From an archaeon (GTDB lineage Archaea > Thermoproteota > Nitrososphaeria > Nitrososphaerales > Gagatemarchaeaceae), in the NCBI GenBank assembly GCA_021800855.1, contig JAJYYP010000002.1, positions 1 to 64,000 of the forward strand: a DNA stretch of 64,000 nucleotides, in the 5' to 3' direction. This document shows, piece after piece, positions 44,788 to 63,888 of this stretch (positions are counted from its first letter, which is position 1; every line of letters starts with the position of its first letter). Under the pieces are notes generated by a model. The model was not told the DNA's origin. It saw only the letters and a program-made list of their open reading frames with translations, and did no database searches. The position numbers were made by a program, and so were the translations under genes.

Positions 44788-45492
44788 ATGCCTATAGGAG
44801 CCATCTTCGACCTCGACGGCACCTTGGTGGCCTTCAAACTGGACCTCAGGGGGGCCCGGAAGGAGGTCATCGAGGAGCTGGCGCGACGAGGATATGACAC
44901 TTCAGCCCTCGACGCCTCTTCATACACCCAGATGATACTGGACGCCGCGAATGCGCAGACGCCGAAGGGGGAGGAGCGCCGCTTTGAAGAGGCGCGAAGG
45001 GCCGCCTTCGACATACTCGACAGGTTCGAAACAGCGGGGGTTGTCGGGGCCCAGCCCCTTCCAGGCATCAGAGGTGCACTAGACCACCTCCGCCTCAGCG
45101 GCGTCAGGATGGCAGTCTTGACCAACAGCGGCAGGAAGGCCGCCTCGGCGGAGCTGGAGAACGCGGGGATCGGGGCCTACTTCGAGTTCGTCCTCACGCG
45201 AGACGAGACGGTGGTGATGAAGCCCGCTCCCACGGGTGTGGCGATGGCTGCGGCCAGGCTCGGCCTGGGCAAGGACTCGACATACTACGTCGGGGACAGC
45301 CCGTACGACGTCCGTGCGGCGAAGGCGGCTGGAGTGAAGGCCATAGCAGTCGCCACAGGCAACTACCCTGTGGATAGGCTGCGAGGCGAAGGAGCAGACT
45401 ACGCTGCCGTGTCTGTCGCACAGCTGAAGTCCTTCTTCGACGGGTTGGTGAAACAGAAGCGCGACTCCCCCTTCCGCCGTCCGACCGGCTAG
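44788..45492 (+). CDS. HAD-superfamily phosphatase (Gph-like)
   Basis: 234 residues. Motif I AIFDLDGTLVAF with both Asp, motif II AVLTNSG, the motif III Lys in VVMKPAPTGVAMAAARLGL, and motif IV YYVGDSPYDVRAAKAAG are all intact. The cap is helical (about 15-95). It is close to phosphoglycolate phosphatase-type enzymes; the actual phosphoester is unknown. It follows a tiny membrane protein gene by 6 bp, and the MITE-like element begins 21 bp after its stop. Confidence 0.9.
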   Translation: MPIGAIFDLDGTLVAFKLDLRGARKEVIEELARRGYDTSALDASSYTQMILDAANAQTPKGEERRFEEARRAAFDILDRFETAGVVGAQPLPGIRGALDHLRLSGVRMAVLTNSGRKAASAELENAGIGAYFEFVLTRDETVVMKPAPTGVAMAAARLGLGKDSTYYVGDSPYDVRAAKAAGVKAIAVATGNYPVDRLRGEGADYAAVSVAQLKSFFDGLVKQKRDSPFRRPTG

Positions 45493-45505: not shown

Positions 45506-45513
45506 CAGGGCGC
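45506..45513. repeat. Target-site duplication, left copy
   Basis: CAGGGCGC lies directly outside the left inverted repeat of the 112-bp element and recurs exactly outside its right end, as expected for an 8-bp duplication made on insertion. Confidence 0.7.
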
Positions 45514-45625
45514 AGGCTTGTTGAATAACTACCGTGTCCATGATAATTCTACCTGGTTGTTTGACGAGCCACTCCTATGTGACTTAACATAGACCTGTTC
45601 TAATTCGGAGTTATTCAACAACGCT
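45514..45625. mobile_element. 112-bp MITE-like non-autonomous element
   Basis: The ends are 17-bp inverted repeats: AGGCTTGTTGAATAACT on the left and AGCGTTGTTGAATAACT as the complement of the right end, differing only by a GC/CG swap and perfect over the inner 13 bp. An identical 8-bp direct repeat abuts both ends. The interior is A/T-rich against a G/C-rich background, has no reading frame, and contains a hairpin CTATGT-GACTTA-ACATAG. These are the marks of a miniature inverted-repeat element moved by a transposase elsewhere in the genome. No transposase is in the window. Confidence 0.75.
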
Positions 45626-45633
45626 CAGGGCGC
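45626..45633. repeat. Target-site duplication, right copy
   Basis: CAGGGCGC, exact match to the copy outside the left terminal repeat. The repeat does not extend further in either direction, so it is 8 bp. Confidence 0.7.
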
Positions 45634-45660
45634 GGAATCCATAAAGCGAACCCCGGAGAA

Positions 45661-46038
45661 GTGTATCCGGGTTTTGAGATGCCAGGCGAAAGAACAAGCA
45701 CGCCGTACTACATCGTCGGCCTCCCCGAGGAGCAACTGGAGGCCTCAGAGGCCAAGGCGAAGTTCGAGAGGCTGTCCGCTGAGCTTTGCAAGGTGTTCCC
45801 GCACGTCGAAGAGATAAGGGCGGTGGTGAAATCGAAGAAGCCAGCGGTGGACCATGCCAGATACGAGGTCTCCGTCGAGATATTCACCCCCGGCGGCAAC
45901 CACTCCTTCACCGGGACAGGCTACAACCTGGCCAGCGTGTTCGAGACCATGGGCCCCAAAATGAAGAGGCTGCTCTCTTCGAGGCAGTCAAGGGTTACCT
46001 TCACCGGTGGCGCGACCCTCAGGAAGGGCTCCGTCTAG
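45661..46038 (+). CDS. Small protein, possibly HPF/RaiA-like fold
   Basis: 119-125 residues; the GTG track start or the ATG six codons later (MPGERTST) are both possible, with a CCATAAAG box upstream. The pattern helix (EAKAKFERLSAELCKVFPHVEEI), strands (AVVKSKKPAVDHARYEVSVEIFTPGG), then helix (YNLASVFETMGPKMKRLLSS) is beta-alpha-beta-like and recalls ribosome hibernation factors, but no diagnostic residues are visible, so the call is weak. It starts 28 bp after the MITE-like insertion. It overlaps the convergent aminopeptidase by 4 bp. Confidence 0.65.
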   Translation: MYPGFEMPGERTSTPYYIVGLPEEQLEASEAKAKFERLSAELCKVFPHVEEIRAVVKSKKPAVDHARYEVSVEIFTPGGNHSFTGTGYNLASVFETMGPKMKRLLSSRQSRVTFTGGATLRKGSV

Positions 46039-63727: not shown

Positions 63728-63765
63728 GGAATTCATTTTGGGCTATCCTATAACGGGCCCGGTGG
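63728..63765. repeat. 3' end and flank of tRNA-Arg (att-like partner)
   Basis: This is the partner of the repeat at 61199-61236. Twelve of its bases are the acceptor and T-stem 3' strand of the tRNA gene, the usual target of archaeal tyrosine recombinases. No integrase gene is visible between the two copies. Confidence 0.45.
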
Positions 63766-63843
63766 GATTCGAACCCACGGTCTCTGAGCTTTCGCACTTC
63801 AGCTTCGGAGGCTGACGCCCTGTCCGTGCTGGGCTACGGGCCC
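63754..63843 (-). tRNA. tRNA-Arg (CCG), with about 15 extra nt after the anticodon arm
   Basis: On the minus strand the acceptor stem pairs GGGCCCG with CGGGCCC plus a G discriminator. The D-stem is GCCC/GGGC, the anticodon arm is TCAGC-CTCCGAA-GCTGA (anticodon CCG), and the T arm is GTGGG-TTCGAAT-CCCAC. Between anticodon and T arms there are about 20 nt (AGTGCGAAAGCTCAGAGACC) instead of about 5. A type II variable arm is not expected for Arg, so a small intron at a non-standard site or an inserted segment is likely. No CCA is encoded. Confidence 0.85.
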
Positions 63844-63888
63844 GGGGAACCCACCGATGGACCACGAGTTAAGCGCACCCCCTCCGGC

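Follow-up and report, generated by a model that had tools for sequence, protein, structure and literature searches.

The window, by which we mean the whole 64,000-nucleotide stretch of DNA from a Nitrososphaerota archaeon that was analysed, contains a short insertion between two genes of the same orientation, with the following features in order:

44788..45492, + strand: upstream gene for a HAD-family hydrolase; 13 bp separate its end from the left duplication
45506..45513: left-hand target-site duplication (8 bp), CAGGGCGC; the empty site of genome G022 has CGGGGCGC once
45514..45625, + strand: 112-bp MITE, a putative non-autonomous IS5-type element, with copies elsewhere that carry duplications
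45514..45530, + strand: left terminal inverted repeat AGGCTTGTTGAATAACT, the promoter-distal end
45609..45625, - strand: right terminal inverted repeat AGCGTTGTTGAATAACT, promoter-proximal at 7/7 independent 112-bp MITE loci
45626..45633: right copy of the target-site duplication, CAGGGCGC
45634..45640, + strand: BRE-like stretch GGAATCC, with an A at offset 11, conserved in empty-site orthologues
45641..45646, + strand: TATA-like box ATAAAG, at offset 15-20 from the element
45679..46038, + strand: downstream gene (119 aa, without a Pfam match); its promoter appears to be targeted; likely start ATG 45679

The two 17-bp ends are identical at 15/17 positions, the inner 13 being perfect, and this 13-mer occurs in the window only at these two places while 0.17 occurrences would be expected by chance with 2 mismatches allowed. 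The element has 41% GC compared with 63% for the window, and its longest stop-free stretch measures ~31 codons. It is well under the limit of ~600 bp for a MITE, is bounded by terminal inverted repeats and carries no transposase gene. The first-pass annotation, which had described a 112-bp element with such ends, an exact 8-bp duplication and an A/T-rich interior lacking a reading frame, is thus confirmed on these points at 45514-45625. The internal hairpin that it also reported is present (CTATGT/ACATAG), but its conservation among the copies is only partial, with 4/6 pairs kept in four other copies and 6/6 in one; folded as a whole, the element forms a hairpin (z -2.7). The alternative of a conserved element, RNA or regulatory, was rejected, as relatives are without it and Rfam has no match here. 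Elsewhere in the window, positions 63753-63844 hold a tRNA-Arg(CCG) of 92 nt, as against a 71-position model, which may contain an intron.

Everything that had been expected of a genuine MITE, namely multiple copies of the ends, an empty site in a relative and an IS with the same ends and 8-bp duplications, could be found. The assembly itself (1.45 Mb, 109 contigs, 90.9% complete) holds the element a second time, identical in sequence, at C70:6925-7036, where the duplication is AGCGTCAG. Close to this second copy (L007:7060-7440) a ~130-bp stretch is repeated on both sides of an N run, probably a scaffold-gap artefact. A search of 46 genomes of the family gave 11 copies, all within a single genus and spread over 6 genomes, with nine in five congeners, and every copy is exactly 112 bp long, 87-100% identical and flanked by a perfect 8-bp duplication. 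Some of these copies are orthologous between genomes, and the independent loci number 7, with differing target duplications. An extension of the family to more distant genera was rejected, as outside the genus the ends are single and near chance level, and so was a phage or plasmid origin, as neither phages and plasmids nor viral contigs gave a match.

In G022 the joined flanks align at 91% identity without a large gap, and the target is present once in the empty sequence, GACCGGGGCGC-GGAATCCATAAAGC. More distant orthologues, likewise without the element, have an identical GGAATCCATAAAGC block, and the GGAATCCATAAAG promoter block is unchanged across those empty-site orthologues whose sequences were compared. 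The insertion is hence the derived state, and the promoter-like block existed before it. The sequence is therefore neither confined to a single copy nor conserved with the element at this locus in relatives, either of which would contradict a mobile element. Judged by sequence comparison, the 112-bp insert is a genuine and recently mobile MITE, where the first reading had gone only as far as MITE-like.

Searching with the ends uncovered IS with the same inner 13 bp in G031/G039, G040 and G021. The first is a decayed IS of 1035 bp with ends AGCG.../AGTC... and the duplication GCGGCAGG, and in G031 one of its ends is AGCGTTGTTGAATAACT, identical to that of the MITE; the two decayed copies (L054 and L055, at G031:C50 and G039:C9) are of the parent type, identical over 1035 bp and at the same locus. 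The IS of G040 (L057/L063) is intact and 1057 bp long, with ends TGGGTTGTTGAATAACT and the target-site duplication CTGAGCTG, and encodes a 298-aa transposase of the IS5 family (DDE_Tnp_1; NF033579, E 2.6e-69), for which no solved structural relative was found at E 0.01. The IS of G021 is also intact, without a duplication. There is hence an autonomous IS with matching ends, a matching duplication length and an IS5 transposase, and we infer that the MITE is moved in trans by a transposase of this family (NF033579). The MITE and the known IS copies have their ends in common and nothing else. No functional transposase of the MITE's clade was found in its own assembly (90.9% complete). Since this assembly shows only a distant relative at 28% identity, the autonomous partner has been lost, is unassembled or is absent there. 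A sister MITE of 105 bp in G036 (C3:3531-3635; L056:1532-1636) has TGGG-type ends as in the intact IS of G040 and G021, and its duplication is matched at 7/8 bp.

At the window locus the order is CAGGGCGC-GGAATCC-ATAAAG, with an ATG 38 bp past the start of the TATA-like box. A GTG at 45661 is too near this box for a likely start. Because the box at 45641-45646 is conserved and ATG 45679 is kept in the empty-site orthologues, the sequence suggests that the true start is ATG 45679, 53 bp from the element. The first-pass annotation had correctly placed the insertion upstream of a gene, but the distance of 28 bp that it gave rests on GTG 45661. Its proposal that the gene's promoter may be changed has to be refined in a similar way: the BRE-TATA core is intact with the element just upstream, and the most that the insertion could do is to move upstream control sites away from the core promoter. 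The genes downstream of MITE sites include Nop56, TatA, a rhodanese, DUF655 and an HNH protein.

The MITE itself is ordinary, and the finding of interest is the apparent promoter-targeted insertion that it shares with other archaeal IS5-type elements. The idea of a fixed distance to the promoter was formed by reading the flanks of 12 independent family sites (7 MITE-112 loci, MITE-105 and 4 IS) and was then tested on other sites. With offsets counted from 0 at the first base of the target, a hexamer with at least 5/6 A/T positions lies at offset 15/16 at 12/12 family sites; the null, for which the remaining offsets in these flanks were used, is 2.5 +- 1.3, and 12/12 was never reached in 20,000 resamplings. 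An all-A/T hexamer is found there at 9/12 sites for 0.64 expected, and the BRE-like A at offset 11, a position not used for site choice, at 11/12. The site in G031 is less clean, with a weak A/T box starting at 16. The TATA sequences vary (ATAAAG, TTAAAT, TCATAA) while their position is constant. An A/T preference symmetric in sequence at both flanks was rejected, as the signal is mostly one-sided, with the box on one side at 26 sites and on both at 4. Gene starts lie on the same side: an ORF of 80 aa or more starting 38-80 bp from the element is found on the TATA side in 9/11 cases and on the other side in 2/11, and in a further set the figures are 8/15 and 1/15. The AGCG end of MITE-112 is directed towards the promoter at all seven independent loci, with a p of only 0.016, whereas the sister 105-bp MITE is reversed and has the opposite end towards it.

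In three genomes (G028, G036 and G038) another IS5-type IS, with 36% transposase identity, occupies the MITE's own CTGATAAG target, giving the layout CTGATAAG-MITE-CTGATAAG-IS-TCTGATAAG with a TCATAA box after it. Such an arrangement would fit two elements aiming at the same offset from one promoter. The loci concerned (L008 at G038:C3, L009 at G036:C16 and L010 at G028:C200; 8-9-bp target) have identical flanks in the three genomes, which are labelled as different species.

The same spacing is met in other archaeal IS5 elements, read against the high background that AT-rich genomes give to A/T box counts. At 40 other IS5_2 insertions in Nitrososphaerales, identified by their ends and duplication, an all-A/T hexamer is located at 15/16 in 21, where 9.7 were expected (p 5e-5). 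The GGC-ended group of IS5_2 elements in this order reaches 10/12 (3.6 expected), while for a six-copy 997-bp IS of Nitrososphaerales the box is not above background. A 1058-bp IS with 9-bp duplications in two distant genomes of the phylum, which from its length and copy number is probably ISC1058 of Saccharolobus/Sulfolobus relatives, has the box at 14/15 sites as against 4.4 expected, and in 12/15 a TTTAWA with at most one mismatch is exactly at offset 15. MITEs whose ends match this IS, in 1.6 Mb of one of the two genomes, have it in 5/5.

In Nitrososphaerales IS4-type families are absent (0/201) and IS256-type ones too rare (3/201) to act as controls, and their place was taken by further repeat families of a 3.0-Mb genome that carries the 1058-bp IS. 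A TTTAWA-like box at 15/16 is present at 1/30 sites of three such families in the same 1.6 Mb (1/16 for a 1439-bp IS, 0/7 for a 1227-bp IS and 0/7 for a 183-bp repeat) and at 5% of random positions, compared with 18/20 when the 1058-bp IS is taken together with its MITEs (Fisher 2e-10). Bacterial IS5_2 elements with 9-bp duplications from environmental plasmids have an all-A/T box in 0/8 cases, and in 2/8 at a looser threshold. In a tree of 49 transposases the box is associated with the MITE's kin (7/8), the 1058-bp IS (7/7) and the GGC group (9/11), but with neither one Nitrososphaerales clade (0/8) nor the bacteria (0/8); the trait changes 8 times on the tree as opposed to 16.6 with shuffled labels (0 of 500). 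That a sister clade in similar genomes lacks the signal speaks against a bias of composition or of survival. This signal-free clade consists of L130, L160-L164 and related loci, all Nitrososphaerales IS5, and comparing its transposases with those of the targeting clades could point to targeting residues.

Most likely, then, the element targets archaeal core promoters. Our reading, which we hold with considerable though not complete confidence and which is drawn from sequence, is that the MITE, moved in trans by an IS5-type transposase, inserts at archaeal promoters in a near-fixed position, namely 15-16 bp upstream of TATA. An IS5-family (NF033579, IS903/ISH1-like) DDE transposase would recognise the ~17-bp TTGTTGAATAACT ends of the MITE, and the transposase-end complex would make an 8-bp staggered cut and insert 15-16 bp upstream of TATA, adjoining the BRE. 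The core promoter would stay intact and the AGCG end of the MITE would come to lie towards it. In archaeal promoters the TATA box is located near -30 to -25, which would put the strand cuts near -45 and -37, where a TBP/TFB complex ends on its upstream side. Targeting could be achieved by recognising the promoter via bound TBP/TFB or by reading the BRE/TATA DNA. Docking on a host factor would account for both the one-sidedness and the variable TATA sequence. In its general form, the chances are about even that widespread archaeal IS5-type transposases dock on the TBP/TFB initiation complex, having evolved this separately from Ty3/TnGBS targeting, and that MITEs therefore scatter modules like the 112-bp one upstream of intact core promoters.

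The transposase might instead read the BRE-TATA DNA, or its bendability, at a fixed distance without any host protein, which is a variant of the same promoter targeting by other means and one that we consider possible but somewhat the less probable. The motif is short and A/T-rich, the spacing is tight, and the bacterial relative IS903 has a sequence-based target preference. However, a transposase dimer on the duplication should be two-fold symmetric while the signal is mostly not, the box differs in sequence at a constant position, and real gene starts follow it. Alternatively, insertion could be random, with only the copies just upstream of core promoters surviving selection, since intergenic insertions are generally better tolerated than those in genes; yet selection would not yield a peak 1-2 bp wide, nor one that is absent from the other repeat families of the same genome and from the sister IS5 clade (8/8 without), and we regard this as very improbable. 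The picture given by the first-pass annotation, an ordinary MITE inserted at random between genes and possibly altering its neighbour, agrees with every structural feature of a MITE but is hardly credible when 7/7 independent loci share both the distance to a TATA-like box and the end that faces it.

If promoter targeting holds, such insertions would mark working promoters and help to map archaeal core promoters in uncultured genomes. The archaeal IS5-type elements would join the very few prokaryotic transposons that aim at promoters, offer a simple system for asking whether TBP/TFB guide transposition and possibly provide a tool for promoter-upstream insertion in archaea. Should docking on TBP/TFB also be true, MITEs could serve as ready-made upstream regulatory or insulating cassettes. 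In the open full-text literature, to which this search was confined, we found no report of promoter-targeted insertion by archaeal IS5 elements, and a review of MITEs does not mention TATA (PMC10969869).

The transposase and its elements resemble the IS903/ISH1 type (IS5, NF033579 transpos_IS5_2) in the DDE transposase of ~300 aa, the element length of ~1.05 kb, the 17-18-bp TTGTTG-type ends and the 8-9-bp duplication, but the bacterial members examined have no TATA-like box at a fixed offset. A parallel for an archaeal IS with a dependent MITE is ISC1058, on which the MITE SM3A depends in Sulfolobus/Saccharolobus; the available part of that paper does not mention promoter targeting (PMC3718332). 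In genome G670 the 1058-bp IS, whose duplications measure 9 bp, and MITEs of 129-210 bp fit this description and have the same TATA offset. They differ from the family of the window in their distant host, which shares only the phylum, in their ends (TGCTTTGTGG as opposed to AGNNTTGTTGAATAACT) and in duplications of 9 rather than 8 bp.

With regard to targeting, a counterpart is found in the TnGBS/ISLre2/ISKra4 elements (p-MULT, Mutator superfamily), which insert 15-17 bp upstream of sigma-A promoters with an orientation set by the asymmetry of their inverted repeats, and for which contact with the initiation complex has been proposed (PMC3942029). The 112-bp MITE is likewise found upstream of promoters at a fixed distance (12/12 family sites) and in one orientation (7/7). 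It differs in that its transposase is IS5_2/DDE_Tnp_1 and not of the Mutator superfamily, and in that an archaeal BRE-TATA promoter takes the place of the bacterial sigma-A promoter. Ty3 also integrates beside promoters, through contact with TFIIIB/TFIIIC as cited in PMC3942029, but it is a eukaryotic LTR retrotransposon, and the contact with host factors that is demonstrated for Ty3 is only proposed here for the archaeal IS5 elements.
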